A DNA stretch of 64,000 nt, from the NCBI RefSeq assembly GCF_001544015.1, contig NZ_AP014924.1, forward strand, positions 2,170,001-2,234,000. The letters are read 5' to 3'. A program made the translations under genes and the position numbers. The first letter of the stretch is position 1, and each line of letters begins with the position of its first letter. Positions 9,288 to 28,545 of the stretch are shown in pieces. The notes beneath the pieces were generated by a model. The model saw nothing but the letters and a program-made list of their open reading frames with translations, made no database searches and was not told the DNA's origin. Origin of the DNA: Limnochorda pilosa (GTDB taxonomy: Bacteria > Bacillota > Limnochordia > Limnochordales > Limnochordaceae).

Positions 9288-10445
9288 ATGAGTGACCGCA
9301 TGGTGGAGGTACTCCAGTTGATCCGAACCCAGGGGCCTGTCTCCCGGTCCCTGATCGCCCGCGAGCTGGGTCTCAGCCCTGCGGCCGTCTCCATGGCCGT
9401 TTCCAGCCTCCTGGAAGCGAACCTTCTCGTGCTCCGGAACGGTACCACCCGCAGGGGCTTGGGCCGCCGCCCGGAGCTGCTGGAGTTCAACCCCGCGTCC
9501 GGGTACGTCCTTGGGCTCGACCTGGGCGCTCGCCACATCCGCGCCGCGGCTGCGGACCTCGCGGGGACGATCGTTCGGAGGGTCGAGTTTCCGACCCTGG
9601 CGTACGAAGGCGGCCAGCGAGTCGTGGAACGCCTGGAGAAGACCGCCCGCGAACTGATCGAAGCGCTTCCGGACAGGAAAGCCATGGCCATTGGTCTCGC
9701 CAGCCCGGGGGTGCTCCTGCCCACGACGGGGCGGCCCTGGCTCGCGCCCTTCATCCCCGAGCTCCAGGACATCCCGCTCAAGGAGCACATGGAGCAGGCC
9801 TTCGCCTGTCCCATCCTCATGGAGAACGACGTGGACATGGCGGTCCTGGGCGAGCTGGCCTGGGGCGCGGGGCAGGGCAGTCAGAACGTGGTCTTCGTCA
9901 ACATCGGCATCGGGCTCGCGGCGGGCATCGTGCTCAACGGCCGGCTGGTGCGGGGCTCCAACCGGGCGGCCGGCGAGATCGGTTTCATGGTCCTGGACCC
10001 AGGGCACGTGCGGGAGACGTTCAGCGAAACGGGGGCGACAGAGGCGGTCCTCTCGGGGCCTGGCATCGTCCGCCGGTACCGGGTGCTGGCGGGCGACCGG
10101 GCAAGAGACGCCGAAACCGGCGCGTCCGAATCTGAGCGTGTGTTCGCCCTGGCCCGGTCCGGAGACGCCGCAGCCCGCCAGGTCATCGACGAGAGCGTGC
10201 GCTATCTGGCCATGGTGCTCGCGAACCTGGCAGCGGCCTTCAACCCCGAACGGCTGATCGTGGGTGGAGGCGTCGGCCTCGCGCTGTTCGATGAGGAGAG
10301 GATCACAGGGTTCCTTCAGGCCCACGTCCCCTTCGTGCCCCAGGTGGTGCTGGCCCGGCTGGGCGGCGATGCCAGCCTCATGGGCGCGATCTCGTGCGCG
10401 GTGGATGCGGCGCTCCAGGATGTGGAGCAGCGCCTGACCCGGTGA
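9288..10445 (+). CDS. ROK-family transcriptional regulator (NagC/XylR/Mlc type)
   Basis: DNA-binding regulator, 385 aa. An N-terminal winged helix (residues 5-60; VSRSLIARELGLSPAAVSMAV) is fused to a ROK sugar-kinase fold with LGLDLGARHIRAA in place of the kinase DxGGT phosphate motif, LMENDVDMAVLGE, and NIGIGLAAGIVLNG. The usual ROK zinc motif CxCGxxGCxE is absent after GEIGFMVLDPG. ATG 9288 has GGAGGCG 7-9 bases upstream. First gene of a plus-strand operon with kinase, ABC importer and AgaS; it likely represses that operon in response to an amino-sugar (phosphate). Confidence 0.92.
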   Translation: MSDRMVEVLQLIRTQGPVSRSLIARELGLSPAAVSMAVSSLLEANLLVLRNGTTRRGLGRRPELLEFNPASGYVLGLDLGARHIRAAAADLAGTIVRRVEFPTLAYEGGQRVVERLEKTARELIEALPDRKAMAIGLASPGVLLPTTGRPWLAPFIPELQDIPLKEHMEQAFACPILMENDVDMAVLGELAWGAGQGSQNVVFVNIGIGLAAGIVLNGRLVRGSNRAAGEIGFMVLDPGHVRETFSETGATEAVLSGPGIVRRYRVLAGDRARDAETGASESERVFALARSGDAAARQVIDESVRYLAMVLANLAAAFNPERLIVGGGVGLALFDEERITGFLQAHVPFVPQVVLARLGGDASLMGAISCAVDAALQDVEQRLTR

Positions 10446-10511
10446 GCGGATCGTCCTACGGCGCGATGCTTGCGGCGTCAGGGGCACCGCGCAAGAAGAG
10501 GAGGCGGCACG

Positions 10512-11471
10512 GTGGCACCGCGACCCATCGACTGCGTGGTCCTTGGCGACCTCAACGTGGACCTGATCCTGGCAGGGCTCCAGGGCGAGCCTGCCTTCGG
10601 GCAGGAGCGCACGGTGTCGGACGCCCTCCTCACCCTGGGGGCGTCGGCCGGCATCTTCGCGAGCGACCTGGCACGGCTGGGCGCCCGGGTAGCCTTCGTG
10701 GGGCGGGTTGGGAACGATCACTTCGGACGTTTCACCCTGGAGACCCTTCGTGGTGAGGGCGTCGACCTGGAGCAGGTCGCCGTGGACCCTACCCGCAAGA
10801 CAGGCGTCACCGTCTCGGTCACCCGGCCGGACGAGAAGATGCTGATCACCTTTCCCGGAACGACGGCCCACGTCTCTCCGGCCGACGTCGACCCAGCCCT
10901 GCTGCCGAGGGCCCGGCACCTTCACGTGGCGTCGTACTACCTCGTCACCTCGCTCCGGGATCACTTGCCCAGGGTCCTCCGGGAGGCCCGAGCGTCCGGG
11001 CTCACCACCTCCCTCGACCCCGGCCACGACCCTGAGAGCCGCTGGCGGGGCATCGAGGCCTGCCTTCCGCTCCTGGACGTCTTCCTGCCGAACGAGGAAG
11101 AGGCTCGGGCCATCACGAGCCAGGCCGATCCGGTAGACGCTGCCGTCGCGCTGGCCCGTACGGTGCCCCGGGTGGCGGTGAAGCTGGGTAGCGGTGGGGC
11201 GATCCTTGCTTTGCAGGGCGGTGGCATCCTTCGCGCCGGTCCTCATCCCATCGAACCTGTGGATACCACCGGCGCAGGCGACGGGTTCAGTGCCGGTTTC
11301 GTCTGGGCGTTCCTCCGTCGGCTCGAGCCGGCGGACGCGCTGGCTATCGCCAACGCCTGCGGCGCCCTGGCCACACGCTACCTGGGGGGGACGGCTGGCT
11401 TTCCCCGCCTCCCCGACGTGCTCGCACTCGTCCCTGACGTGGGACTTCGCCTGGAGGTGGCGGGGTCATGA
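10512..11471 (+). CDS. PfkB-family sugar kinase of the AgaS cluster
   Basis: Cytoplasmic carbohydrate kinase, 319 aa. N-terminal VVLGDLNVDLILAG, first PfkB signature region GASAGIFASDLARLGARVAFVGRVGNDHFG, and catalytic signature DTTGAGDGFSAGFVWAF with the base Asp. GTG 10512 is selected because GAGGAGG lies 7 bases upstream; the in-frame ATG at 10470 would begin with an Arg/Gly-rich stretch unlike homologues. Its stop overlaps the permease start by 4 bases (ATGA). With AgaS in the operon, a tagatose-6-phosphate or related ketose-phosphate kinase, or a kinase of the imported sugar, is likely. Confidence 0.9.
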   Translation: MAPRPIDCVVLGDLNVDLILAGLQGEPAFGQERTVSDALLTLGASAGIFASDLARLGARVAFVGRVGNDHFGRFTLETLRGEGVDLEQVAVDPTRKTGVTVSVTRPDEKMLITFPGTTAHVSPADVDPALLPRARHLHVASYYLVTSLRDHLPRVLREARASGLTTSLDPGHDPESRWRGIEACLPLLDVFLPNEEEARAITSQADPVDAAVALARTVPRVAVKLGSGGAILALQGGGILRAGPHPIEPVDTTGAGDGFSAGFVWAFLRRLEPADALAIANACGALATRYLGGTAGFPRLPDVLALVPDVGLRLEVAGS

Positions 11472-12424
11472 GGAGCCTGTCGTCCCGGCCGGCCCAACAC
11501 CCGCTCGTGGCCCTCGACCGCTCCGGCTGGCTCGACCGCCCCCTGCCGCTGGCGGTGCTGCTCCTCCTCCCCACCCTCTTGCTGGTCTTCGGCGTTCTCC
11601 TCTACCCCATGGGCCGCGCCTTCTGGATGAGCCTGACGGACCTGCACCTGGCCAGGCCCCAGAGCGGCGTTTTCGTGGGGCTGCAGAACTACGTCGCAGC
11701 CTTGCGCGATGCGGGCTTCCTGGCCGCGCTCGGCCGTACGCTCTACTTCGCGCTCCTCACCGTGCCGGTGGAGACCGCTCTCGGCCTCCTCATCGCCCTG
11801 CTGCTCAATCAGAGCTTCCCCGGCCGGGGCTTCGTCCGCGGCCTCATCATCCTTCCCTGGGCCCTCCCCTACGTGGTGAACGGCGTCATGTGGAAGTGGA
11901 TCCTTAACGCCAACTACGGGGCGCTGAACGCCCTTCTTTCGCAATTGGGGTTGATCGACGCCTACCAGATCTGGCTCGGGCACCCGTCAAGCGCCTTCCA
12001 CTTTGTGGTGCTGGCGAACATCTGGAAGGAGACGCCCGTCGCGGTCATCCTTCTGCTTGCGGCGCTCCAGACGGTTCCCGACGAGTTGCACGAGGCGGCC
12101 ACCGTCGACGGCGCGGGCGCCCTCCGCCGTTTGTGGTACGTCACCCTACCGCTCCTGCGGCCGGTGGTTGCGGTCACTCTGGTGGTGAAGACTGTCTGGG
12201 CCTTGAAGGAGTTCGACCTCATCTACGTCATGACGGCCGGCGGCCCCGCCGACGCCACCAACCTGGCCACCTTCTTCACGTACCTCACCACCTTCAAGTT
12301 CATGCGTTTCGGCTACGGTTCCGCCCTGGCCTTCCTCATCGCCCTGGTGTCGCTCGTGATCGCGCTCTTCCATGTCCGCCTGGTCTCGCCGGGCGAGGCT
12401 CGATCGGACGGTGGTACCCCATGA
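11468..12424 (+). CDS. Sugar ABC importer permease, MalF type
   Basis: Inner-membrane permease of 318 aa with six main hydrophobic segments. The EAA loop that contacts the ATPase is EAATVDGAGALRRLWYVTLP (about residues 202-221), matching the EAAxxDGA-x8-IxLP consensus of carbohydrate uptake family 1. Starts with ATG overlapping the kinase stop and ends overlapping the next permease, so translation is coupled. Works with the permease at 12421 and the binding protein at 13315. No ATPase gene is in the operon. Confidence 0.93.
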   Translation: MRSLSSRPAQHPLVALDRSGWLDRPLPLAVLLLLPTLLLVFGVLLYPMGRAFWMSLTDLHLARPQSGVFVGLQNYVAALRDAGFLAALGRTLYFALLTVPVETALGLLIALLLNQSFPGRGFVRGLIILPWALPYVVNGVMWKWILNANYGALNALLSQLGLIDAYQIWLGHPSSAFHFVVLANIWKETPVAVILLLAALQTVPDELHEAATVDGAGALRRLWYVTLPLLRPVVAVTLVVKTVWALKEFDLIYVMTAGGPADATNLATFFTYLTTFKFMRFGYGSALAFLIALVSLVIALFHVRLVSPGEARSDGGTP

Positions 12425-13284
12425 GCCGGCGGAGGCGCGTCTGGGTCCAGCGGGCCGCTCTCTACCTGGCCGTGGCCCTGGTCTGCCTCTGGGTCCTGGC
12501 GCCCTTCACGTGGCTTGTCATCAGCAGCCTCTCCACCCGGGTGGATCTTACCAGCGTACCCCTCCAGTGGTTGCCCGATAAGCCCAATCTGGAGCATTAC
12601 CGAAGCATCTTCCTCGGCGGGCCTGGGAGCACCAGCGTCCACCGCAGCCTCCGGCGGGGAGCGCTGAACAGCCTCGTCGTCGCCACGGGCGCCACATTCC
12701 TCGCGCTGGCGGCCGGCTCCCTCGCGGCCTACGCGGTCACCCGCCTGCGGTTCCGGCTGAGAGGACCCTTCCTGGCCACACTCCTGGTGACCCAGCTCTT
12801 GCCTCCGGTGGTGCTAATCATCCCCATGTACGTCATCTTCCGCTCTCTCCGGCTGCTGGACACGGTCTGGGCCCTGATGCTGGCCGATCTGGCCATCATC
12901 CTGCCGCTCATCGTCTGGATCCTGAAGGGCTACTTCGAGGGTGTCCCGGAGGGGCTGGAGGAACAGGCGCGGATCGATGGGTGCACCCGGGCGGGCGCGC
13001 TCTTCAGGGTGGTTCTTCCTCTCTCCGCGCCCGGACTCGCCGCCGGCGGCATGTTCGCCTTCATCGTGGCGTGGAACGAGTTCTTCACCGCCTTCATCTT
13101 CAGCTCCACGCTGCAGTCCAAGACGCTGAGCGTCATCGTCTCCGAGTTCTCGAGCAAGGTGGGCATCGACTATGTCGCGATGAGCACGGCGGGGGTGCTG
13201 ACCAGCATTCCGCCTGTACTGCTCGCGCTGCTCTTCCAGCGCTACATCATCCGGGGGCTGACTGCTGGCGCCGTCAAGGGCTAG
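12421..13284 (+). CDS. Sugar ABC importer permease, MalG type
   Basis: Second permease subunit, 287 aa, six predicted membrane segments; the EAA loop reads EEQARIDGCTRAGALFRVVLP and the C-terminal end GLTAGAVKG matches the MalG family ending. ATG 12421 overlaps the TGA of the MalF-type gene. The open frame continues far upstream in the antisense-like region, but that part shows no MalG similarity. Confidence 0.93.
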   Translation: MSRRRRVWVQRAALYLAVALVCLWVLAPFTWLVISSLSTRVDLTSVPLQWLPDKPNLEHYRSIFLGGPGSTSVHRSLRRGALNSLVVATGATFLALAAGSLAAYAVTRLRFRLRGPFLATLLVTQLLPPVVLIIPMYVIFRSLRLLDTVWALMLADLAIILPLIVWILKGYFEGVPEGLEEQARIDGCTRAGALFRVVLPLSAPGLAAGGMFAFIVAWNEFFTAFIFSSTLQSKTLSVIVSEFSSKVGIDYVAMSTAGVLTSIPPVLLALLFQRYIIRGLTAGAVKG

Positions 13285-13314
13285 CGGCAAGCCCCCACCA
13301 AAGGGGTGTTCACG

Positions 13315-14592
13315 ATGGCAAGACGGCTCTGGCTCGCTGCACTGGCCCTCACGCTGGTGACGGCGCTGATGGTTCCCGCGGCCGCCGCCGAGCGCATCAC
13401 GGTGATCATGCCCCGGCATGAGATGGACCTGGTCGGCCTGTGGGAGAAGCAGACCCGGGAGTTCGAGCAGGAGACAGGCGTCGAGGTGGAGTTCATCCAG
13501 CTCTCGTGGGACGAGGTCGCGAACAAGGTCCTCACCGACCTGGCCGCAGGCGGCGGAACCTACGACGTGATCGAGTTCGACAACGGCTGGGTGGCCAAGT
13601 TCGCCGAGGCGGGCTGGGTGGAGCCTCTGGACCCTTACGCCTCCGACGCCTACCTGGAGAGCCTACTGCCCGGCCTGGTGGGCACCTTCAGCCGGAATGG
13701 GCAGGTTCTGGGCATCCCCTGGAACAACGACACCCGCTTCTTCTTCTACAACGCCCGCATGCTGGCGGAGGCCCGCATCGACGCGCCACCCAGGACGTGG
13801 GACGAGGTCGCGGTCCAGGCCCGCCGGTTGAAGGAGGCGGGCGTGGTGACCTACCCCATTGCCGAGTACTGGAACCAGGAGTGGGCCCTGGGCAACTCCT
13901 TCGCCTTCTACCTCTACAGCTTCGGCGCCGACTACTTCGACGAGACCGGCAAGATCACCATCGACAAGCCCCAGGGAGTCCAGGCGCTTCGCTTCATGGT
14001 GGACATGCTGCGGCAGGAGAAGCTCGTCCACCCTTCCAGCGTCACCCTCTCCCAGGAGGCCGCCGCGGACCTCTTCTACCAGGGTCAGGCCGCCTTCCTC
14101 TTCCAGGGACCGCCCGTGACCTACAACTACGCCAACGACCCCCAGCGTTCCCGGGTGGTGGGCGAGGTGCGTGCCGCCTCCTGGCTGCCGGCGCTCGACG
14201 CGCAGAGCCGAGTCACCCTGACGCTGCCCGAGGCCTTTGCCATCCCGAAGAGCAGCCGGCACAAGGAAGCAGCCTGGCGCTACATCCAATACATGATCTC
14301 TCAGGAGAAGGACCGCGAGCGGGCTGAGACCCTCGGAAGCCTGCCGCTCTTCCGCTCTCTGTACACCGATCCGCAGCTCCTGGCCAGGTATCCGTACTGG
14401 AAGCAGTTCGGTGAGCAGTCCGAGCGGGCCCGCCCGCTTCCGCAGGTGGAATGGTACGACGAGCTGGTGCAGACCACCATCGTGTCGGTGCAACGGGCGC
14501 TCCTGGGGCTTGCCACGCCCGAGCAGGCGGCCGGTGAGATCGCCGCCTTCCTGGATGGGCAGGAGGTCGACGGGGTGGGCCTTACACGGTGA
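13315..14592 (+). CDS. Extracellular sugar-binding protein of the ABC importer
   Basis: Family 1 solute-binding protein, 425 aa. Signal peptide at residues 1-25 (MARRLWLAALALTLV, AAAAE cleavage region) without a lipobox cysteine; then ITVIMPRHEMDLVGLWEKQ and the hallmark GGTYDVIEFDNGW and GIPWNNDTRFFFYN. ATG 13315 has AAAGGGG 9-10 bases upstream. Followed by an intercistronic hairpin. Ligand probably an amino sugar or oligosaccharide because AgaS and, facing it, NagA/GH20 genes are adjacent. Confidence 0.92.
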   Translation: MARRLWLAALALTLVTALMVPAAAAERITVIMPRHEMDLVGLWEKQTREFEQETGVEVEFIQLSWDEVANKVLTDLAAGGGTYDVIEFDNGWVAKFAEAGWVEPLDPYASDAYLESLLPGLVGTFSRNGQVLGIPWNNDTRFFFYNARMLAEARIDAPPRTWDEVAVQARRLKEAGVVTYPIAEYWNQEWALGNSFAFYLYSFGADYFDETGKITIDKPQGVQALRFMVDMLRQEKLVHPSSVTLSQEAAADLFYQGQAAFLFQGPPVTYNYANDPQRSRVVGEVRAASWLPALDAQSRVTLTLPEAFAIPKSSRHKEAAWRYIQYMISQEKDRERAETLGSLPLFRSLYTDPQLLARYPYWKQFGEQSERARPLPQVEWYDELVQTTIVSVQRALLGLATPEQAAGEIAAFLDGQEVDGVGLTR

Positions 14593-14600
14593 TGAAAGGA

Positions 14601-14630
14601 GCTCGGGGGTTGGGCCGCCGGCCCCCGAGC
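14601..14630 (+). other. Intercistronic hairpin after the sugar-binding-protein gene
   Basis: GCTCGGGGG and CCCCCGAGC form a 9-bp stem, extendable by two G-T pairs, 8 bases after the stop codon and 32 bases before the AgaS start. There is no T-run, so it is a candidate mRNA stabiliser or attenuating structure. Confidence 0.6.
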
Positions 14631-14662
14631 ACCACCACGAAGAGACCGGGAGGAATGCAGGC

Positions 14663-15850
14663 ATGTCCGCAGGACTTGCGTCGCTGCTACAGCTCGACGA
14701 AGAGACCAAGAAGGCGCGGGGGCTCCTCCACACGCCCGGGGAGATCGCCCGGCAACCGGAGATCTGGCCCAAGACGGTGCGGGCGATGCATGCCCATGCG
14801 AATCGGCTGCGGGAGCTTCTCGACGGTGTCCACGACGTTCTGCTCACCGGGGCGGGGAGCTCCTACTTCATCGGCAAGAGCCTGGAGAGGGCCCTGGCAG
14901 GGCACCTCAAGGCCCGGGTGACAGCCGTTCCTTCCACCGAAGTGGTGATGGACCCCGAGGCCACCCTCCCCCGTTCGTCCTTCCTGCTCGTCTCCTTCGC
15001 CCGTTCGGGGAACAGCCCCGAGGGAAACGCCACCTTCCAGCTCGCGGACCGGCTGCGTCCCGGCCAGGTCCGGCACCTGGTTGTCACGTGCAACCCCGAA
15101 GGGACTCTGGCCTCCCTGGCGCGGGCGACGGAAAGCCCGGCTGTTCTCTGCGAGCTTCCCGAGGCCAACGACCAGGGACTGGCGATGACCAACTCCTTCA
15201 CCAGCATGTTCGTCGCTGCGCTGGCGCTCGGGTACCTGGACGATCTGGAAGCCCACGCGCACGTGGTGGAAGGACTCGCCCAGTCGGGGGGTGAGGTCCT
15301 CGGGCGGCACGACAAGGCCCTCGAGGACCTGGCAAACCGGGACTTCCGCCGGGCCTTCTTCATCGGTTCGGGCGCCTCCTACGGGGCGGCGCTCGAGTGC
15401 CACCTGAAGGTCCAGGAGCTGACCGACGGGGAGGTCGTCGGCAAGGCCGAGGAGACGCTCGGCCTCCGCCACGGACCCATGGCGGCCATCGCTGCCTCGA
15501 GTCTGGTGGTCCTCTTTGCTTCATCCAGCCCCTACCGGAGGCAGTACGAGACAGATCTTCTGCGGGAGCTCCATGCGAAGGCTTTGGGGCTGCAGCGGGT
15601 GGTCGTCTGCGGGCGTGCCGAACCCGAGTGGCGAGACCTGGTCCACCACGTCATCGAGTTCGACCCTGTGGGTCGTCTTTCCACGGCGGACGAAGTCCTG
15701 CCGCCCGTTCAGGTGATCGTCGGACAACTGCTCGGGCTCTTCGCGTCCATCCGGTCGGGGCTCGCCCCGGACGCTCCCAGCCGCCACGGCGTGATCCACC
15801 GGGTGGTCGAGGGGGTTCGGATCTACTCTTACGGGCCCATTGGTCCGTAG
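14663..15850 (+). CDS. agaS: AgaS-family SIS-domain aldose-ketose isomerase / amino-sugar-phosphate deaminase
   Basis: Cytoplasmic enzyme with two SIS domains, 395 aa. Family landmarks are TPGEIARQPEIWPKTV near the N-terminus, DVLLTGAGSSYFIGKSLE (first SIS sugar-phosphate loop), LLVSFARSGNSPEG, VTCNPEGTLASLA, and second-domain FFIGSGASYGAALEC and ETLGLRHGPMAA. This set matches AgaS, which deaminates/isomerises galactosamine-6-phosphate (or related) to a ketose phosphate. ATG 14663 has GGGAGGA 8 bases upstream. It can take the product of NagA, encoded by the facing operon, and no NagB is present here. A fructosamine deglycase role is a less likely alternative. Confidence 0.85.
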   Translation: MSAGLASLLQLDEETKKARGLLHTPGEIARQPEIWPKTVRAMHAHANRLRELLDGVHDVLLTGAGSSYFIGKSLERALAGHLKARVTAVPSTEVVMDPEATLPRSSFLLVSFARSGNSPEGNATFQLADRLRPGQVRHLVVTCNPEGTLASLARATESPAVLCELPEANDQGLAMTNSFTSMFVAALALGYLDDLEAHAHVVEGLAQSGGEVLGRHDKALEDLANRDFRRAFFIGSGASYGAALECHLKVQELTDGEVVGKAEETLGLRHGPMAAIAASSLVVLFASSSPYRRQYETDLLRELHAKALGLQRVVVCGRAEPEWRDLVHHVIEFDPVGRLSTADEVLPPVQVIVGQLLGLFASIRSGLAPDAPSRHGVIHRVVEGVRIYSYGPIGP

Positions 15851-15922: not shown

Positions 15923-16954
15923 TCACATGCGGGACAGACCGAGCCTTGCGACGGTCGCCGCGCCCACCACGCCCGCGAGGTGGCCCAGCGGAGTCAGATG
16001 CACGCATGCCTCCGCCTTGCGCAACTCGGGAGCGAGGGTTCCCACGGCCGCTCGGACCTCGTCCAGAAGCGGCCTCTCTCCGCCCACCGCCACCCCTCCG
16101 CCGAGCACCACCAGGTCCGGGTCGTAAGCCCTCACACCGATGACCACCGCCAGCGCGATCCCCCTGGCCAACCGGCGCCTCAGGTCCAAAGCGGCGCGAT
16201 CTCCCCGGGCGGCCGCTTCCAGCACGTCCTGCCCGTTCAAGGGCGCCCCATCGAGCCGCTGGCGACCCATGGACGTGGCCCACTGGGCGTCCTCCACCAC
16301 CTCACGCGCCCAGCGCGCCAGCGCCCGTCCTGACGCCACCGTCTCCAGACAGCCGCGCTGGCCGCAGTTGCACGGGTAGCCGTCGGCGACCACCGGAATG
16401 TGACCGATCTCACCTGCTTCCCCAGTGCCGCGAAAGAGCTCGCCGTCCATCACCAGGCCGGCCGCAAGACCCGTACCCACGCTGACGTAGAGAAGCGAAC
16501 GCGTCCCCGTTCCGAGACCGTGGCCCACTCCGTGGTGGAACTCGCCCAGGGCCGCCGCCTTCACGTCATTCTCCAGAAACGTGGGCAGACCAGCCCACGC
16601 CTCCAGCTGATACCGCAACGGTACGGCACCCGAGTCGAGCACCAGGTTGGAGCTGCCTTCCCAGGTCCCTGCCTGCGGGTCCACGCGCCCAGGCGCTCCA
16701 ACGCCCACGGCCCGAACCGCTTCCCAGCCGACACGCGCGCGGCTCCGGGCCTCCTCCACCGCATCCCGGATCTCCTCCACCACCGTGGAGGCCGAAGCGC
16801 CCCGCGCCACCGCGCGAGACGCCCAGGCAAGCACGTCACCGTTCGCCGTGACGATGCCCGCCGCGACCTTGGTGCCACCCACGTCCACACCCACGAACCG
16901 CGGCGCCTCAGCTTCGCCCACCTGCCGTAGCCCCCCGTCGTCACCCACGGACAA
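15923..16954 (-). CDS. ROK-family sugar kinase (probable N-acetylhexosamine/glucose kinase)
   Basis: Cytoplasmic ATP-dependent kinase, about 343 aa. Intact ROK kinase features: phosphate loop VGVDVGGTKVAAGIV, catalytic-region ENDVKAAALGE, and the zinc/substrate motif GHIPV...CNCGQRGCLE. The His-Cys set is complete, unlike the two ROK regulators of this island. TTG 16954 begins 9 bases after the nagA stop; GTG 16948 is possible. Last gene of the GH20-ROK-ABC-nagA operon; likely phosphorylates imported GlcNAc/GalNAc so NagA can act. Confidence 0.9.
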   Translation of the reverse strand: MSVGDDGGLRQVGEAEAPRFVGVDVGGTKVAAGIVTANGDVLAWASRAVARGASASTVVEEIRDAVEEARSRARVGWEAVRAVGVGAPGRVDPQAGTWEGSSNLVLDSGAVPLRYQLEAWAGLPTFLENDVKAAALGEFHHGVGHGLGTGTRSLLYVSVGTGLAAGLVMDGELFRGTGEAGEIGHIPVVADGYPCNCGQRGCLETVASGRALARWAREVVEDAQWATSMGRQRLDGAPLNGQDVLEAAARGDRAALDLRRRLARGIALAVVIGVRAYDPDLVVLGGGVAVGGERPLLDEVRAAVGTLAPELRKAEACVHLTPLGHLAGVVGAATVARLGLSRM

Positions 16955-16963
16955 CCCTGCTCG

Positions 16964-18139
16964 TCACAGGTTCTGAAAGACGATGCGACCGCGCACCACG
17001 GCCATGTCCACCTCCAAGTGAGGACCCAAGGCGATCATGTCCGCGTCCTTCCCCGGCTCAAGCGACCCCTTCCGATCGGCAACACCCATCAGCCGGGCCG
17101 GGTTGAACGCGGCCATCTGGACCGCGTCCTCCAGCCTGCACCCGGTGGTCTCCACCACGGCGCGCACGATGCGGTTCATGGGCATCACGCTACCGGACAG
17201 GGTCCCCCCCTCCACCCAGCAGCGGTCGCCCTCCTTGATCACCGTGTGCGGGCCGTGCGGGTAACGCCCGTCCGGCATTCCGGCCCAGTGGGTGTTGTCG
17301 GTGATGAGCGTGATCCCGTCCGGCGCCTTGCAGTTCATCAGCACCTGCATCGCCACGGGATTCACGTGGTAGCCGTCGCCGATCAGCTCCGCGTTCAGCT
17401 CAGGCCGGGTGAGGGCCGCACCCACCACGCCTGGATTCCGGTGGTGCATGGGAGGCATCCCATTGAAGGTGTGGCAAACCGACCGCAGCCCCCGGCGGAT
17501 GGCTGCGTCCATGACCTCGTAGCTCGCGTTGGTGTGGCCGGCGGAAGGCACGATCCCCCGCTCCACCAGGGCGTCGATGACCTCCATCGCTCCCGGGATC
17601 TCGGGCGCCAGGGTCATGTAGCGCAACGTCCCACCCGACGCGTCCCACATCCGCTCTACCTCCGACACCGAGGGCCGGCGCATCGCCTCCACGATCTGCG
17701 AGCCCCGCGCCGCCCCTTCGGCCGAGAGGTACGGCCCCTCCAGGTGAACTCCCAGAACGTCGCTGCCCGGAGTATCGGTTCCCACGAACGCACGCACCAC
17801 GTCCAGCTCCCGCAGCAGCTCCTCGAAGTCCTCGTCGCCCCCGAGGGTCGGGAGCACCGAGGTGGCCCCGTGGCGAACGAGCTGGACCAGCATGCCGGCC
17901 GTGGCGTCCGCCGAGGCGCCGGCCGCATGCCCGCCGGACCCGTGGACATGGATGTCGACGAAGCCCGGGGTCAGCGTCCGAGCGCCGGCATCCACGACCT
18001 GCGCATCGGGTTGAGGCGGCAGCATGACCTGAGGTCCCACCCAAACGATGCGACCGCCCTCCACGAGCACGGCGCCGCGCTCGATGCTCCGGAAAGGCGT
18101 TACCACCCGCTCCGCCTTGAAGACCGTACGTCCCTGCAT
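16964..18139 (-). CDS. nagA: N-acetylglucosamine-6-phosphate deacetylase
   Basis: Removes acetate from GlcNAc-6-P (or GalNAc-6-P), 391 aa, normal family length. Amidohydrolase TIM-barrel features: FVDIHVHGSGGH, metal-ligand Glu in HLEGPYLS, His in SAGHTNASYEV and CHTFNGMPPMHHRNPGVVG, and the catalytic Asp in LITDNTHWAGMPDG. ATG 18139 fits family length and gives MQGRTVFKAERVV; the longer frame to 18349 lies mostly inside the upstream permease gene and is not homologous. The ribosome site is weak (AAAGGGG 13 bases away), with GTG 18163 as alternative. Gap to the upstream permease is 52 bases. Confidence 0.93.
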   Translation of the reverse strand: MQGRTVFKAERVVTPFRSIERGAVLVEGGRIVWVGPQVMLPPQPDAQVVDAGARTLTPGFVDIHVHGSGGHAAGASADATAGMLVQLVRHGATSVLPTLGGDEDFEELLRELDVVRAFVGTDTPGSDVLGVHLEGPYLSAEGAARGSQIVEAMRRPSVSEVERMWDASGGTLRYMTLAPEIPGAMEVIDALVERGIVPSAGHTNASYEVMDAAIRRGLRSVCHTFNGMPPMHHRNPGVVGAALTRPELNAELIGDGYHVNPVAMQVLMNCKAPDGITLITDNTHWAGMPDGRYPHGPHTVIKEGDRCWVEGGTLSGSVMPMNRIVRAVVETTGCRLEDAVQMAAFNPARLMGVADRKGSLEPGKDADMIALGPHLEVDMAVVRGRIVFQNL

Positions 18140-18191
18140 GATGCGTCCGACCCCTTTCGCCACGTCGAGTGCACCGGCCAGCCCAGCGATC

Positions 18192-19106
18192 TCAGCCCTT
18201 GGTCGCCCCGAGGGTGAGACCTTCGATGATCCGCTGCGACAGGAAGACGTAGACGAGCAGCGATGGAACCATGACCACCGCGAACCCTGCGAAGAGGCCC
18301 ACCCAGTCGCCCGTGTACCGCATGTTGCCATAGAGGGCGTAGAGGCCAAGCGACAGTGTGTACTTGGTGTTGCTGACCAGGAGGGTCAGGCTGAGGAGGA
18401 ACTCGTTCAGCAGCCAGACCACGTTGAAGATGGTCGCGGTCAGAAGACCCGGTGCGGCCAGCGGCAGCATGATGGAGAGGAAGGTCCGCGAAGGGCTGCA
18501 TCCGTCGACGGTGGCCGCCTCCTCCAGCTCACTGGGGAGACTTCGGAAGAACCCGCGCAGCAGGAAGATGGTGAAGGGCAAGGAGGTGACCACGTAGGCC
18601 AGGATCAGCCCCGTGAGCGTGTCCACCAACCCGACCCGGAACATCAGGAAGAAGAGCGGGATGATGATCACCTGCACCGGTACCCCGATCCCCACGATGA
18701 AGAGGCTGGAGAGGGTCTGCGCGCCGCGGAAGTGCATCCTCGCGAGGGTGTAGGCGGCCGGAGTGGCCAGCACCAGCACCAGAAAGGCCGAGACGGCCAC
18801 CGCGAAGAGGCTGTTCCCGAAGTACTGCCCCAGGCTCCCCGAGGTGAGCACCCGCAGGTAGTTTCCCCACTGGGGTGCTTCCGGAAGGGACCAAATCCCG
18901 CGGAAGAACTCCTGATTGGTTTTCAAGGAGGCAAGCAGGATCCACCCGAACGCGAAGAGCGAGAAACCGATCCACACCAGAAAGAACGCCATCGCAATCA
19001 TGCGGGGCACGTCCCGGAGTCGAGCCTTCGTCGGCAGTCCCCTCTTCTGTGTCTCCGGCGGACAACGCGCTTCCGCGGAATCGAACGGCCTCGGTTCAGT
19101 ACTCAA
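18192..19106 (-). CDS. Sugar ABC importer permease, MalG type (NagA operon)
   Basis: Membrane permease of 304 aa with six hydrophobic segments. The EAA loop is EEAATVDGCSPSRTFLSIMLP and it ends GLTLGATKG, typical of MalG. TTG 19106 overlaps the stop of the MalF-type gene by 11 bases and has GGAGGGA 5 bases upstream; an ATG near 19001 inside is an alternative. No ATPase gene accompanies the importer. Confidence 0.92.
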   Translation of the reverse strand: MSTEPRPFDSAEARCPPETQKRGLPTKARLRDVPRMIAMAFFLVWIGFSLFAFGWILLASLKTNQEFFRGIWSLPEAPQWGNYLRVLTSGSLGQYFGNSLFAVAVSAFLVLVLATPAAYTLARMHFRGAQTLSSLFIVGIGVPVQVIIIPLFFLMFRVGLVDTLTGLILAYVVTSLPFTIFLLRGFFRSLPSELEEAATVDGCSPSRTFLSIMLPLAAPGLLTATIFNVVWLLNEFLLSLTLLVSNTKYTLSLGLYALYGNMRYTGDWVGLFAGFAVVMVPSLLVYVFLSQRIIEGLTLGATKG

Positions 19107-20028
19107 CGCTCTCCCTCCCCAGCAGCTTCCAGAAGGCGAACACGAAGAAGAAGACGATGAACAGCATGAGGACCCCCATGGCGGAGGCGTACCCCATGCG
19201 GAATGTCGCCTCGCGCGTGCCGAAGGAGATCGCGTACATGTACACGGCCAGGTTCTGCTGTCCCGGCTGCGGGAAGGCCCCCCCGCCGCCCCATGCGTAG
19301 AGGAACGAGAACTCCTTGATGGCCGTGAAGCCCCACAAGACGATGGCGAGGCTCAGGATGTCGCGGATCAGCGGCAGCTTGATGCGGAAGAACACCTGCC
19401 ACGGCGTCGCCCCGTCCACGTTCGCCGCGTCGGCGTAGTCGGGCGGAATCCGGTCCAGGGCGGCCACCAGGATCACGGTGTAGAAGCCCACGTTGATCCA
19501 GACAAGGGCCGCCAGGAGCGCCCAGAAAAGCGAGTCCGGCGCGGTCCAGGTCCGGATCAACGAATCGAGACCGACCGACCGCAGCAGGCCGTTCAAGAGC
19601 CCCCACTGCTGGTTGTAGATGAACCCCCAAAGCACCGCCAGAGCCACCGGGTTGACCACATTCGGGAAGAAGACCGCCGCCCTGAGGAAGCGCTTGCCGC
19701 GGACCCTGCCCGTCAACAGGTGGCTGAAGAGCAGGGCGATCCCCAGGACGGCCGCACCGCCGATCACCAGGATGCCCAGGGTGTTCCGCATCACCACGCG
19801 CCAGAAGTGGCCGTCGCCCAGCAGCTCGCGGAAGTTCCCCAGGCCCCTGAACGCCATGTTGGTGCTGAAGCCGTCCCAGTTGAAGAGGCTCACGTAGAAC
19901 CCCTGAAGCGCGGGGTAAACGAAGAAACCGACGTAGAGCAGCAAAGGAACCGATAGCGACGCGACGATGAAGCCCTTGCTTTGACGCACGCCCAACGCCT
20001 TCACCCCGATTCCCGGTTCCTTGGCCAC
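19096..20028 (-). CDS. Sugar ABC importer permease, MalF type (NagA operon)
   Basis: Membrane permease, about 310 aa. Six segments start with FIVASLSVPLLLYVGFFVYPALQG; EAA loop DAANVDGATPWQVFFRIKLP. GTG 20028 (VAKEPGIGV) or GTG 20004 are both plausible, the second having AAGGA upstream. The frame runs to 20229 but that part crosses the hairpin and the 3' end of the binding-protein gene and is not real. Pairs with the MalG-type permease and the binding protein to import amino sugars. Confidence 0.9.
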   Translation of the reverse strand: MAKEPGIGVKALGVRQSKGFIVASLSVPLLLYVGFFVYPALQGFYVSLFNWDGFSTNMAFRGLGNFRELLGDGHFWRVVMRNTLGILVIGGAAVLGIALLFSHLLTGRVRGKRFLRAAVFFPNVVNPVALAVLWGFIYNQQWGLLNGLLRSVGLDSLIRTWTAPDSLFWALLAALVWINVGFYTVILVAALDRIPPDYADAANVDGATPWQVFFRIKLPLIRDILSLAIVLWGFTAIKEFSFLYAWGGGGAFPQPGQQNLAVYMYAISFGTREATFRMGYASAMGVLMLFIVFFFVFAFWKLLGRESVEY

Positions 20029-20061
20029 GAACCCCTGGCGTGACCTGCTCGCGCACAAGAA

Positions 20062-20111: not shown

Positions 20112-21401
20112 CTACTGCGCTTTCCAGTATTCGATCGTCTTCGCCTTGATCTCGCCGATGAAGGCTTCCGCGGTCAGGTCTCCGTGCAGGAGACGGGTCC
20201 CCAGTGGGCCGAAGAGGGTGCTGAACCACTGCGGGATTCTGGCCTGAGTGAAGTCGTACTCCACATGGAACCCATCCGCGTTCTCCACGTAGGGTTGGAT
20301 GCCGGCGATCTCCTTCGGGTAACCCACCCCGGAGCGTGCGGGAACGTTCTGGGCCACCTCGGCGATCATCTCTTGGTATTTCTCCTGAAGGGCGAAGCGG
20401 ATGAGCTGCTTGGCAAGTTCCTGGTTCTTGGCCTTCTTGGGAATCGCCCAGCCGATGAGGTACGCTTCCATGGTGTTCGGGCCGTCGGGGCGCACCGGTG
20501 GGAAGGCGAAGAAGCCCGGATCCCAGTCAGGGGAGGCGGACGGCGCCACCTCGTTGACGATCCAGGAGCCCACCAGGATCATGGCGCCGTTCCCCTGCCC
20601 CCAGCTCACCTGACCCGCCGGCCACACGCTGCCCTGGTAACCCTTGAGGAAGTAGTCCTCTCCGGCCGCGCTCACCGTCTCGACCATCTTGGCCGCTTCC
20701 AGGTAGCCCGGTTCGTCCCAGGTGGCCCCGGTGCGGTCGGTGGCCGCACGGTAGAGGGCGCCCGGCCCCAGCGTTCGCTCCACAGCCCAGTAGTACCAAT
20801 AGGCGTTGTAGAGATCGTCGTTGTCCTGGACGAAGGCGGCCTCCCCGTTCTCCTTCAAGGTCTTCGCCACGTCCAGCAGCTCAGACCAGGTCGTGGGGAC
20901 CTCGAGGCCGTACTTGGCGAAGAGCGTCTTGTTGTAGAAGAAGCCCGAGGTGATGTACTCGTACGGAACGAAGTAGTACTTCCCGTTCCGCGCATAGAGG
21001 TTCAGGAAGTCGGGCGCGAAGAGGTCTGCAAAGCGCCCGTCGCCCTCCGGTCCGGGACCCTCGAGCAGGTCGTTCAGAGGCAGCACCAGCTCGTCCCGGG
21101 CGAGCAGGGCGGCCCAGAGCTCACTGAACGACTGCTCCAGCACGTCGGGAGGATTCCCCATCAGCAGCCGCGGGCGCGCCTTGGTGAGGATCTCGCGCCC
21201 GGCCCAGGTCGGTCGCACGGTGACGCCCGTCTCGGCCTTGAAGTCCTCGAAGATCTGCGACAGCACCTTCTCCTGCGGCTCGCCCTTGTTCCACATGCTG
21301 TAGAACTCGAGGGTCTGGGCCGCAACACCGGCCTGCAGCACCAACACCGCCACCAGAGCCACGATCGAGAGCCCAAGCACCTTCCTCAGACTGCGGGTCA
21401 C
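20112..21401 (-). CDS. Extracellular sugar-binding protein (NagA operon)
   Basis: Family 1 solute-binding protein, 429 aa. Signal peptide with SLRKVLGLSIVALVAVLVL core and AGVAAQ cleavage region; mature part TLEFYSMWNKGEPQEKV, NPPDVLEQSFSELW, GSWIVNEVAPS. GTG 21401 is chosen for AAGGGAG 8 bases upstream; the frame stays open to 21746 through sequence lacking a signal peptide. Ligand probably GlcNAc, GalNAc or a short N-acetylhexosamine oligosaccharide released by the GH20 enzyme. Confidence 0.9.
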   Translation of the reverse strand: MTRSLRKVLGLSIVALVAVLVLQAGVAAQTLEFYSMWNKGEPQEKVLSQIFEDFKAETGVTVRPTWAGREILTKARPRLLMGNPPDVLEQSFSELWAALLARDELVLPLNDLLEGPGPEGDGRFADLFAPDFLNLYARNGKYYFVPYEYITSGFFYNKTLFAKYGLEVPTTWSELLDVAKTLKENGEAAFVQDNDDLYNAYWYYWAVERTLGPGALYRAATDRTGATWDEPGYLEAAKMVETVSAAGEDYFLKGYQGSVWPAGQVSWGQGNGAMILVGSWIVNEVAPSASPDWDPGFFAFPPVRPDGPNTMEAYLIGWAIPKKAKNQELAKQLIRFALQEKYQEMIAEVAQNVPARSGVGYPKEIAGIQPYVENADGFHVEYDFTQARIPQWFSTLFGPLGTRLLHGDLTAEAFIGEIKAKTIEYWKAQ

Positions 21402-21493
21402 CCTTGCCACTCCCTTCGTTTCGATTCCTGCCTTCAGGTGCCGATCCGCCCGCCGGCCCCCGGTCGAGCGGACCCAGCCCGCGGAGTGCCGCA

Positions 21494-22678
21494 TCAGAGC
21501 CGCCGTTCGGCCTGGGACAGCGCGAGGGCGACAGCTCCCATCAGGCTTGCGTCCCTTCCCAGAGCGGACGAGACCACCCGTGCCGGCCGGCCGAGCCGCT
21601 CCGTGATGCGTGAGGTGAGGAGATCCATGGATAGGGAACGAGAGACTCCTCCTCCGAGGATCAGGATCTCGGGATCGAAGAAGGCCATGAGGTTGGCCCC
21701 CATCAACGTCACCAGATCGACGACGTGCGCCACGAGGGCGCGGCACTGGGGATCTCCGGCAGCGCTACGCCGGAAGACCTCCTCCGCGGACAGCTCTTCG
21801 CCCAGGCGTTCGAAGGCCTGCCGGGCGATGCCCATGCCCGACAGCCACGATTCCAACCTGACCTGCGCCTCGTTGCTCTCCTCCCCCTGCGTGGGGGGAA
21901 GCTCCATGGCCATGTCCGCGATCTCGCCCGCGTTCCCGCTGGCCCCGCGGTAGAGCCTCCCCCCCACCATCACACCTGCACCGAGCCCGTAGCCGATGTT
22001 GACGTAGAGCACGTGGTTGAAGCCCCTGGCGGCGCCCCACCGGCGCTCGCCCAGCAGGGCTGCGTTCACGTCGTTCTCCACCAGGGTTGGAACCTGCAGT
22101 CGTTCCTCCAGCCTCGAGGCGATCTGCACGTTCTCGATGCCCGGGAAGAGCGTGGCGAAGTGGATCCAGCGCCCGTCCTTCTGAGCGACGCTGCCCGGCG
22201 CCGAAACGCCCACCGCCGCCAGACGGGAAGCCAGCTCCGGAGGGGCCAGTTGCAGCGCCTGATCCGTCATTCGCGTCAGGCGGCCCATGACGGCCTCGAT
22301 GCCGTCCCCGATGCCCGTCGGCTGCTCCAGCCGGAGGTGCACCGTTCCTTCGAGGTCGGCCAGCGCGCACGAGAGGCGGACCGCCCCGATGTCGACGCCC
22401 AGGATCGACATGCACGCCGGATCGAACGAGACCAGGTTGGGCTTGCGGCCCCCCCGCCGGTCTCCCTCACCCTGGCCATCGGACCGCACCCGACCCGAAT
22501 CGATCAACTGGGTGACGATGCGCCCCACGGTCGGACGGCTGAGACCCACCTCCGCGGCGATCTGCGGGATCGAGACGGGCCCCCGCCTTCGGATGTAAGC
22601 CAGCACCTGGATTCGGTTGGCCTGGCGCATGAAGCCGGGAGAGCTGGCCGCCGGACGAGCTCGTTCTTCGCTGGACAT
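21494..22678 (-). CDS. ROK-family transcriptional regulator of the NagA operon
   Basis: Repressor-like regulator, 394 aa. Winged helix at residues 15-75 (VSIPQIAAEVGLSRPTVGRIV) and ROK domain with ILGVDIGAVRLSCALADL, LVENDVNAALLGE and NIGYGLGAGVMVGG. The zinc motif CxCGxxGCxE is missing after GEIADMAMELPP. ATG 22678 has AGGTGG 6 bases upstream. A candidate operator matching the one before the GH20 gene lies 23 bp upstream, so it probably represses itself, the downstream transporter-nagA genes and the hexosaminidase. The inducer is likely GlcNAc(-6-P). Confidence 0.92.
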   Translation of the reverse strand: MSSEERARPAASSPGFMRQANRIQVLAYIRRRGPVSIPQIAAEVGLSRPTVGRIVTQLIDSGRVRSDGQGEGDRRGGRKPNLVSFDPACMSILGVDIGAVRLSCALADLEGTVHLRLEQPTGIGDGIEAVMGRLTRMTDQALQLAPPELASRLAAVGVSAPGSVAQKDGRWIHFATLFPGIENVQIASRLEERLQVPTLVENDVNAALLGERRWGAARGFNHVLYVNIGYGLGAGVMVGGRLYRGASGNAGEIADMAMELPPTQGEESNEAQVRLESWLSGMGIARQAFERLGEELSAEEVFRRSAAGDPQCRALVAHVVDLVTLMGANLMAFFDPEILILGGGVSRSLSMDLLTSRITERLGRPARVVSSALGRDASLMGAVALALSQAERRL

Positions 22679-22700
22679 GGGCGCCACCTGACCTGGTGTC

Positions 22701-22726
22701 TACGTTAAGTATCACTCTTTACATAC
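22701..22726 (-). promoter_or_regulatory. Candidate ROK operator in front of the ROK regulator gene
   Basis: Imperfect dyad GTTAAG-N7-CTTTAC inside a 26-base block that matches 19 of 26 positions of the block before the GH20 gene (25165-25190). It is 23 bp upstream of the regulator start, almost the same distance as at GH20 (20 bp). AT-rich against a GC-rich background. Confidence 0.65.
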
Positions 22727-22871
22727 CATGTGTGCGTCGGGAACTCCTGCTTCCAAGTCCCATCGCAGGCGAATCGTGACATGTGAGACCCACGGGCCGT
22801 CCTTCTTGAGCGGGCCGCGGGGGCCGGCCCGACGGGCCTGACCCCCGCGTCCGTTCGTTCCGCCGCGTCCA

Positions 22872-25145
22872 TTACGCTCCCGGTTCGAACTCCTTCTCGA
22901 TCGGCTCCAGCTCGAGCCCGTGGCTCTGAGCGTACTCCAGAGTGAGCGCCTTCAGGTCCGCCATCCAGCCTTCGAGCCCGATCCGCTCCTCGGGTGCGGT
23001 CATGAAGGAGAGATCGGGGCGAGTACCGGCCCAGTGGTTCTTCACGTCGTCGTAGGCATGGAAGTACGTGCGTCCATCGACCGAGCGGCCCTTGGGGAAC
23101 CGGCTCTTCTCGTAGGTCGCCGTGAGCTCCGCGAAGGTGGCCAGGCGATCTGCGACGATGGCTTCGGCTGCCTGGTACGCCCGGATGAGCGACTTCACAG
23201 CATCCTGAGGACGGGGCCGGTACGCCTCGGCCGCGCTCCTGGCTTGCTGCAGATGCCGCTCGACCTGACTGAGCCCGATCAGCATGGACTCGTGGTGGCG
23301 GACGAAGCTGGCCAGCGCGTAGAGCACCTCGAGGTTGTACTGGTTCCGGTCCGCCCGGCCCAGGTTCTCCTGCAGGCGCTCCATGAGCCCCGTGTTCTCC
23401 GCCAGCAACGCCTTCGCCTCGTCCACCCGGCCGCTGTAGAGGGTGGTCTGGTAGATGGGCACGAAGTCCAGGCCCGGAAGGCGCGGCATGGGCGGGGTGG
23501 GCAGCAACATGTCCTTGAACATGATTGGTGTCTTGCCGTCCGAATAGCCGTAGCCCAAGCCTCGTTCCCTTGACCCGGCCTCGTCCCAGGAGTTGCGGAA
23601 GAACCTGACCTGCTCCTCGAGGTCACGGTAGACATCCGTCATACCCACGACCCGGGGTCCGTAGTAGGTCTCCATGAACGCGGCCAGGTGCTGGCTGACC
23701 GACGGGGCATCGGGCGTCCAGCTCCAGTTGGCCACCGCGGACCACCCGAGCCAGAAGACCTCGTTGTGCAGTCCGGCGTCATCCCACGCGGCCCCGAAGG
23801 CACCCAGCGGGTACTCGCCCCAGAGCTGCTTCGCCTCCCGGGAGAGGAAGCGCTGGACACCCCCGAGGATGTCCCTCTCGAAGGTGTAGGGGAGGAGGTA
23901 GTCACTCCCCTGGATCCACGTGTAGGCCAGCACGTCCATGCCGTTGGCCTTCTCCGCGTCGACCTGCTGCTGGCCTACAACGGCCGGGTCCCTCGGGGGC
24001 AGGTAATCGTCCCCCAGCACGCCGTCAATCACGTCCGAGGGAAGCTGCGAGATGTGCTCGGGCCACACGGGGTATTCGAGCCAGACGATCATGCGGCGGT
24101 CGCGCTGGCTCATGAACTCGTGGACCCGGCTGACGAAGTCGATCCACGTGAGGCTCTTGTTCTCAGGGGTGTAGGGCTTGGGGCACGACGGATCGATTCC
24201 GGGATAGTAGAACTCGTCGGTGGAGACGTGGAAGTACCTGACCCCGCGGGTGGCGTTGATCAGGTCCTGGTACATGTCGAAGAGCAGCTCGTAGGTTCGC
24301 TCGTCGCACGTGTTGGCCTGGTAGTTGCTCCCATCCGACCGCAGCTGTGCAAACTCAGGGTGCTTCAGCACGTAGTCCATGTGGGCCGGCGATTGAACGT
24401 TCGGCACGATCTGGATGTGGCGTTCGAGGCCGTAGTCCACCAGATCTTGGAGCTCCTCGGGCGTGAAGGCACCGGGGGCGCCGATGACCGGGTGGCTGGG
24501 ATAGGCGAACATGTCCGCGATCTCGAAGCTGATCATGTTCACCTTGAAGCGCGCCGACCAGTCGAGGTACCGCTTGAGCGTCTGCATGCGGTCCTGGTGG
24601 TGTTTCGTGTCCCAGTGGAGGAAGCGCAGTTCGTAGCTCGGCCAATCCTCGATGGTCGCCACCGGCAACTGGCGGGACCCATCGGATGCCTGCTTCACCA
24701 GCTGGTTGAGGGTTTGCACTCCATAGAAGAGACCCACCAGGCTGTTGCCCGTGATGGTGATCCTGCCTCGCTCCAGAACCATGCGATAGCCTTGATCGTC
24801 CACAGCCTGCCGGGCGCCCGTCTTCACAGCTCCTCGCTCCACGGCCAGCCGGATCACCCGGCTGCCGGCGCTCCCCAGGGAGAGCTCGACGCCGTTGAGT
24901 TCCCGCATGTCCTGGATCAGCATGCGAACCGCGATGTCGTTCGGCGCCACCTTACCGGGATCGACCACCCACTGCCCGTCCAAAGCGAAGGACGCGCCAG
25001 ACAGCTGCACGGAACGGGGTTCGGGGATGACGAGGTAACCAGCCGCAGCCAAAGGAGTCGGGCCCTCTGCGCCCACGGAGACCGGCAGCAGGAAGCCCAG
25101 CCCGAGGAACACCGCCAGCACCATCCGTGCCACCCGCACTGCCAC
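22872..25145 (-). CDS. Secreted beta-N-acetylhexosaminidase (glycoside hydrolase family 20)
   Basis: Hydrolyses terminal GlcNAc/GalNAc from glycans outside the cell, 757 aa. Signal peptide VARMVLAVFLGLGFLLPVSVGA; GH20b domain (about 45-165, YLVIPEPRSVQL...GLFYGVQTLNQL); TIM barrel from EDWPSYELRFLHWDTKHH, catalytic Asp-Glu pair in YFHVSTDEFYYPG, and WSWTPDAPS; then an alpha-helical C-terminal extension of about 250 aa. GTG 25145 has GAGGAGG 6 bases upstream; the frame's GTG at 25160 would contain this site. No lipobox or surface anchor seen. Its operator is shared with the downstream ROK regulator gene. Confidence 0.9.
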   Translation of the reverse strand: MAVRVARMVLAVFLGLGFLLPVSVGAEGPTPLAAAGYLVIPEPRSVQLSGASFALDGQWVVDPGKVAPNDIAVRMLIQDMRELNGVELSLGSAGSRVIRLAVERGAVKTGARQAVDDQGYRMVLERGRITITGNSLVGLFYGVQTLNQLVKQASDGSRQLPVATIEDWPSYELRFLHWDTKHHQDRMQTLKRYLDWSARFKVNMISFEIADMFAYPSHPVIGAPGAFTPEELQDLVDYGLERHIQIVPNVQSPAHMDYVLKHPEFAQLRSDGSNYQANTCDERTYELLFDMYQDLINATRGVRYFHVSTDEFYYPGIDPSCPKPYTPENKSLTWIDFVSRVHEFMSQRDRRMIVWLEYPVWPEHISQLPSDVIDGVLGDDYLPPRDPAVVGQQQVDAEKANGMDVLAYTWIQGSDYLLPYTFERDILGGVQRFLSREAKQLWGEYPLGAFGAAWDDAGLHNEVFWLGWSAVANWSWTPDAPSVSQHLAAFMETYYGPRVVGMTDVYRDLEEQVRFFRNSWDEAGSRERGLGYGYSDGKTPIMFKDMLLPTPPMPRLPGLDFVPIYQTTLYSGRVDEAKALLAENTGLMERLQENLGRADRNQYNLEVLYALASFVRHHESMLIGLSQVERHLQQARSAAEAYRPRPQDAVKSLIRAYQAAEAIVADRLATFAELTATYEKSRFPKGRSVDGRTYFHAYDDVKNHWAGTRPDLSFMTAPEERIGLEGWMADLKALTLEYAQSHGLELEPIEKEFEPGA

Positions 25146-25164
25146 GCTGATCCTCCTCACCAGG

Positions 25165-25190
25165 TAGGTTAAGAACCACAGTTAACCTAC
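25165..25190 (-). promoter_or_regulatory. Candidate ROK operator in front of the GH20 gene
   Basis: Perfect inverted repeat GTAGGTTAA (25164-25172) and TTAACCTAC (25182-25190) with a 9-base spacer, placed 20 bp before the GH20 start and just upstream of its ribosome site. It matches the block at 22701-22726, so the same ROK repressor probably binds both. Confidence 0.75.
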
Positions 25191-27405: not shown

Positions 27406-28503
27406 TCACAGGCTCTCACTCGTCGAAGGCACGACCCGAGGCGCACCCTCCGTACTGCTGGACCCGCACGATTGGCGGATGATGAGCTGCGGCTTCAGGT
27501 ACACGTCCCTCGCCACCGTCGAATCGAACGCCTCCCCGCCACGCGCAATGCCCTGCAGGATGCCTTTTGCGGCGGCCCTCCCCATTTCGTAAGTCCTCTG
27601 AGCCAGCGTGGTGAGTGGGGGAACGACCATCCGCGCCCACTCGCTCTCGTCAAAGCCGACCAAGGCCATCTCCTGAGGGATTCGGACCCCACGGTCGGCC
27701 AGGGCCTTCCATACCCCGACGGTCATCTTGTTGTTACACGCGAAGAGCGCCGTCGGGCGTCGATCTTTCTGCAGATCCAGCAGCTGGAGGGTCGCCCGGT
27801 ACCCACCGTCTTCGCGGAAGGCGCCGTAGGCGATCCAGTCCTCCTGAACGGGCAGGCCCGCGGTGCCCATCGCCTCCCGGTAACCTTCCAGGCGGTCGAT
27901 GCCCGTGTTGATGTCCTGCGGGCCCGCGATGACGCCGATGCGTCGATGTCCGAGGTGGATCAGGTGCATCGTGGCCTCGTAGGCTCCCGCGCGGTTGTCC
28001 GTCAGAATGGCCGGTCCACCACAGCCTTTCGGCCTCCGGTTGACGAAAACCCACGGAATGCCGTGGTCGCGAAGCAGTTGGAGGTGGTCCACCTGCTGGC
28101 CCGCGGCCGAGATGATGACACCCTCCACCCGTTTCTCGCACATCAGACGGCAGTGCTCCGCCTCCTTCGTCGGATCGTGGTCCGTATTCGAGAGAAGGGC
28201 GTGATATCGGTGCGTGGCGAGGACATCCTCAATACCCCGAACCAGTGAGGCATAGAACTGGTTGGTGATGTCCGTGATCAGAACACCCACCGTATGGGTG
28301 GCCTGCTTCTTCAGGCTCCGGGCGACGTAGTTCGGTGTGTAGCCCAGGTCCGCAGCGGCCCGAAGCACACGGTCACGGAGGTCCTCGCTCACGAATCCGG
28401 TATCGTTCAGCACTCGAGAAACGGTGGCCGTCGACGTGTCCGCCCGAAGGGCGACGTCCCGAATCGTGGCGTGCCGGCGCGTCACGTTCCTCTTCACCAT
28501 CAT
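27406..28503 (-). CDS. LacI-family transcriptional regulator
   Basis: Repressor of 365 aa. Lambda-like HTH and hinge at residues 8-60 (ATIRDVALRADTSTATVSRVLND; LGYTPNYVARSL), then a periplasmic-binding-like sensor domain (VGVLITDITNQFYASLVRGIED; GFDESEWARMVVPPLTTLAQ). ATG 28503 (or adjacent ATG 28500) has GGGAAGGG upstream. It lies between the TRAP genes and rpiB. A LacI-type palindrome before the ADPRH gene (32841-32850) is its probable operator. Inducer likely the imported sugar or riboside. Confidence 0.93.
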   Translation of the reverse strand: MMVKRNVTRRHATIRDVALRADTSTATVSRVLNDTGFVSEDLRDRVLRAAADLGYTPNYVARSLKKQATHTVGVLITDITNQFYASLVRGIEDVLATHRYHALLSNTDHDPTKEAEHCRLMCEKRVEGVIISAAGQQVDHLQLLRDHGIPWVFVNRRPKGCGGPAILTDNRAGAYEATMHLIHLGHRRIGVIAGPQDINTGIDRLEGYREAMGTAGLPVQEDWIAYGAFREDGGYRATLQLLDLQKDRRPTALFACNNKMTVGVWKALADRGVRIPQEMALVGFDESEWARMVVPPLTTLAQRTYEMGRAAAKGILQGIARGGEAFDSTVARDVYLKPQLIIRQSCGSSSTEGAPRVVPSTSESL

Positions 28504-28545
28504 CGACCCTTCCCTGATAGGCCCTCGCGCCACAGGATCTGTTGC

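Follow-up and report, generated by a model that had tools for sequence, protein, structure and literature searches.

Two putative operators of a ROK-family regulator beside GH20 and amino-sugar genes in Limnochorda pilosa

Described ROK systems and the present locus

Several ROK-family regulators of sugar utilization have been characterized together with their DNA sites. In Bifidobacterium, the NagR regulon comprises nagK-nagR-nagB-nagA together with ABC transporter genes and has eleven sites; GlcNAc and GlcNAc-1-P are better effectors of B. longum NagR than GlcNAc-6-P (PMC9599254). The Thermotoga ChiR regulon consists of chiEFG-cbsA-nagAB and responds to chitobiose, not to GlcNAc, and the sugar regulators of Thermotoga are encoded inside the loci they regulate and are autoregulated (PMC3750489). 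In published ROK sites, which are inverted repeats, the left arm is rich in T and the right arm in A (PMC2580772). The core of the XylR site is GTTT-N7-AAAC (PMC9104551), and the RokB site at novH in Streptomyces is TTTGTTC-N11-GAACAAA (PMC4856308).

We compared these systems with a locus in a 64-kb stretch of the Limnochorda pilosa genome, referred to here as the window, in which two similar AT-rich blocks lie before a GH20 gene and the adjacent ROK regulator gene (Table 1). The likeness to NagR includes a ROK regulator by nagA, a probable ROK amino-sugar kinase, an ABC importer, palindromic putative operators before the targets and, as we infer, negative control; the differences are that the cluster here is without nagB and that the regulon is far smaller, with two sites against eleven (PMC9599254). 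The locus also resembles that of ChiR, since a local ROK regulator of chitobiose/GlcNAc genes sits in its own locus, which also encodes an ABC importer, an enzyme that cleaves chitobiose and NagA; however, ChiR has one site and the present locus two, and the GH20 enzyme here looks exported (PMC3750489). Escherichia coli NagC and Mlc and the Paenibacillus/Bacillus XylR proteins are likewise ROK repressors with AT-rich inverted repeats, but their core bases and spacing differ from those of the sites here (PMC9104551, PMC2580772). The sites share the general ROK operator layout (PMC2580772). Their GTT-N13-AAC core is the same as that of RokB at novH, although the outer bases differ and novH is a heterologous target of unrelated function (PMC4856308).

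Genes of the amino-sugar cluster

The gene identities in the original prediction, a GH20 enzyme and a protein with helix-turn-helix and ROK domains, were borne out by profiles scoring over their cut-offs. PF00728 is matched once in the genome, by this GH20 protein, whose N-terminus carries, as judged by eye, a signal-peptide-like stretch. The ROK regulator scores 148.8 bits with PF00480 (cut-off 22.9), and its N-terminal winged helix-turn-helix scores 30.8 bits with PF13412 (cut-off 21.9) over residues 24-68. The zinc motif CxCGxxGCxE is absent from the regulator, where the region reads GNAGEIADMAMELPPTQGEESN. The same motif is missing in the alignment of the solved ROK-family protein 7rhe and in most of the near relatives checked; it is thus common but not universal, and its absence is no bar to membership of the ROK family.

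Table 1. Coordinates of genes and putative operators within the window
Feature	Position	Strand	Basis or remark
ROK-family sugar kinase without HTH, start approximate	15923..16915	-	PF00480, 193 bits; TIGR00744 below cut-off
nagA, N-acetylglucosamine-6-phosphate deacetylase, start approximate	16964..18217	-	TIGR00221, 298.5 bits (cut-off 225.65)
ABC permease 2	18192..19106	-	PF00528
ABC permease 1, start approximate	19096..20056	-	PF00528
ABC transporter substrate-binding protein (SBP), start approximate	20112..21410	-	TIGR03851 (E 9e-32), PF01547
ROK-family transcriptional regulator, winged HTH and ROK domain	21494..22678	-	PF00480 and PF13412 over cut-off
Putative ROK operator 2 (autoregulatory), GTATGTAAAGAGTGATACTTAACGTAG on minus strand	22700..22726	-	23 bp before ROK start codon
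GH20 beta-N-acetylhexosaminidase, start GTG near 25145 (ORF opens 25160)	22872..25145	-	PF00728 and PF02838 over cut-off
Putative ROK operator 1	25164..25190	-	9-bp dyad, 20 bp before GH20 start codon

The genes for the ROK regulator, SBP, permeases, NagA and ROK kinase run in tandem on one strand and are tightly spaced or overlapping. The SBP is nearest to NgcE, yet it falls under the curated cut-off of TIGR03851. As in NagC/NagR-type regulons, the regulator gene is linked to nagA and amino-sugar uptake, and, judged from sequence, an inverted-repeat operator precedes both the target and the regulator's own gene. The NCBIfam models for NagC and Mlc score the regulator far under their cut-offs, and with the NagC equivalog NF047937 it reaches 86.4 bits against a cut-off of 650. 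The protein may be NagC-like in its working, though the curated model does not class it as NagC.

Shortly after the GH20 stop codon, at about 22808-22841, lies a strong GC-rich inverted repeat without a T-run, CGCGGGGGTCAGGCCCGTCGGGCCGGCCCCCGCG. It is possibly a transcript end or an attenuator ahead of the ROK promoter, so the two putative operators probably serve two transcription units. A second amino-sugar cluster occupies 9288-15850 on the plus strand and encodes a ROK paralog (37% identical), a PfkB kinase, two ABC permeases, an SBP and an AgaS-family isomerase; it converges on the nagK-nagA end of the first cluster, nagK being the ROK kinase gene. The operator is absent from this second cluster. 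Neither cluster showed a nagB gene, and the single PF01182 match in the genome is at 1362649.

Two inverted repeats and their distribution

In the putative operator before GH20, two perfectly inverted 9-bp arms flank a 9-bp spacer, GTAGGTTAA-N9-TTAACCTAC, and the plus strand of 25164-25190 reads GTAGGTTAAGAACCACAGTTAACCTAC. The repeat had been placed at 25165-25190 (26-mer TAGGTTAAGAACCACAGTTAACCTAC); the 9-bp arms are real, but base 25164 is needed to complete them, the shorter block containing only eight of the nine pairs. The copy before the ROK gene, with the plus strand CTACGTTAAGTATCACTCTTTACATAC at 22700-22726, is an imperfect dyad, in which six of the nine arm pairs are kept in the same register as in the GH20 copy and three are broken. 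The description of an unusually clear site fits the GH20 copy and not this imperfect one. Direct alignment of 25165-25190 with the 26-mer 22701-22726, TACGTTAAGTATCACTCTTTACATAC, gives the predicted agreement at 19 of 26 positions. Start codons were picked by their spacing from Shine-Dalgarno sequences (AGGAGG ahead of GTG near 25145, AGGTGG ahead of ATG 22678), and the distances of 20 and 23 bp from them to the sites were reproduced. The two sites are thus of one design and lie in like positions before two adjacent genes, and the nearest regulator gene is the one encoding the HTH and ROK domains.

With the GH20 palindrome as the sole query, the ROK site ranks second among all matches in the window (14/18), and the one after it reaches 12/18. 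About two sites of 14/18 quality against this palindrome alone are expected by chance genome-wide, so the ROK site is notable for its position and not for its score alone. The pattern STASGTTAA-N9-TTWACSTAS, with up to three mismatches, found two sites only in the 3.8-Mb genome, those before GH20 and ROK, though the pattern was itself derived from both sites. The reversed control pattern gave one match in the same genome. The motif is therefore not scattered away from amino-sugar genes, and a small ROK regulon, as originally proposed, is the best reading.

Among 398 genomes of the phylum, no ortholog of the ROK or GH20 protein was found, and the best ROK relative in this search is a paralog of the same genome with 40% identity; site conservation is thus without a phylogenetic footprint. 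A scan of about 85,000 species found the exact sequence GTWGGTTAA-N9-TTAACCWAC at 30 loci elsewhere, near which no relatives of the ROK, GH20 or SBP proteins were detectable. Most of them are one conserved palindrome of Paenibacillus and Brevibacillus, which at the six loci examined follows a T-box-like terminator and precedes a leuA-like gene; we therefore rejected them as homologous operators. This palindrome, GTTGGTTAAA-N7-TTTAACCAAC, has a conserved centre and lies between the terminator and the leuA-like gene at these six loci and similar ones, where leuA may have it as a second control element. GTT-N13-AAC dyads show only mild enrichment ahead of the phylum's other ROK genes, occurring in 8 of 63 regions where simple shuffles give 3.2, and spacings of 5 and 10 are likewise raised; the generic dyad scan before these 63 genes gave no clear favoured spacing. 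An XylR-like dyad, ACTTA-N11-TAAGT, is common to two related genomes, where a ROK gene follows it at a distance of about 130-160 bp.

Proposed regulation and alternative explanations

From the observed sites, their likeness, placement and genome-wide uniqueness, and the gene neighbourhood, we infer binding, repression and induction as follows: both blocks are quite probably operators of the adjacent ROK protein, which would repress GH20 and its own operon and be released by an amino sugar. That two AT-rich stretches beside ribosome-binding sites resemble each other by chance is extremely unlikely. AT-rich stretches are conspicuous in the window, whose GC content is 66.6%, and when both upstream regions are free, the best-agreeing 26-mers match at 19/26 or more in 1.7% of dinucleotide shuffles (P = 0.0165). 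However, the two sites agree in the register of a perfect dyad and stand equally far from the start codons, and in shuffles of the 211 bp upstream of GH20 a perfect 9-bp dyad (spacer 3-15 bp) has itself P = 0.007. With the query fixed, the probability for the ROK upstream region drops to about 1e-4 for at least 14/18 against the GH20 palindrome and about 1.4e-5 for at least 19/26 against the full 26-mer, and the pair is unique in the genome. At the mRNA level, the repeats could also form hairpins in the 5' leader and so mask or free the ribosome-binding site, and the GH20 repeat alone would form a 9-pair stem of -8.0 kcal/mol just before the Shine-Dalgarno sequence. This role is very unlikely because the ROK copy breaks three of the nine pairs, which leaves only -2.8 kcal/mol; the bases that differ between the copies do not compensate for one another, and in the longer GH20 leader a fold other than this stem has the minimum energy. 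The half-sites are kept in the ROK copy despite the broken pairs, which fits a protein site better than a hairpin.

A different owner of true operators, such as the LacI-family protein encoded at 27406-28533 or an unlinked factor, with the ROK protein controlling something else, is unlikely as well. The gene of the LacI-family protein stands about 2.2 kb upstream of GH20, the genome holds other ROK proteins (15 PF00480 matches), and the sites were assigned to the ROK regulator from sequence only. The usual LacI palindrome is even, whereas the 9-N9-9 repeat is odd in length, and two more genes lie between the LacI gene and GH20. Moreover, one site directly precedes the ROK gene itself, and no such site was found before the ROK paralogs examined.

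Under control by the adjacent ROK protein, a ROK dimer would occupy the inverted repeats beside the ribosome-binding sites when the amino sugar is absent. The bound dimer would block transcription of the gene for the probably secreted GH20 beta-N-acetylhexosaminidase as well as of its own operon, which encodes the ROK protein, ABC importer, NagA and ROK kinase. Upon hexosamine uptake, an amino sugar in free or phosphorylated form (GlcNAc, GlcNAc-6-P, GalNAc or chitobiose) would bind to the ROK domain, and the effector-bound domain would free the DNA and turn the pathway on. A scan for sigma-70-like promoters beside both sites found none, so the choice of a repressor over an activator follows from position. 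Since the effectors of the precedents vary (NagR answers to GlcNAc and its phosphates, ChiR to chitobiose), GlcNAc-6-P is by analogy a plausible, if unproven, guess here. We raise only tentatively, as a rather doubtful extension, that the ROK protein without the zinc motif senses another hexosamine, either GalNAc or a disaccharide. Its cluster and the AgaS/PfkB/ROK2 cluster at 9288-15850 would then use nagA and the kinase in common, as a single hexosamine system with two regulators.

The arrangement is clear but ordinary for bacteria, and knowledge of ROK regulators is unchanged by it. It assigns about seven genes to one putative regulon and provides a cheaply testable pair of candidate operators for a ROK regulator that is uncharacterised and whose lineage has few close relatives with sequenced genomes.
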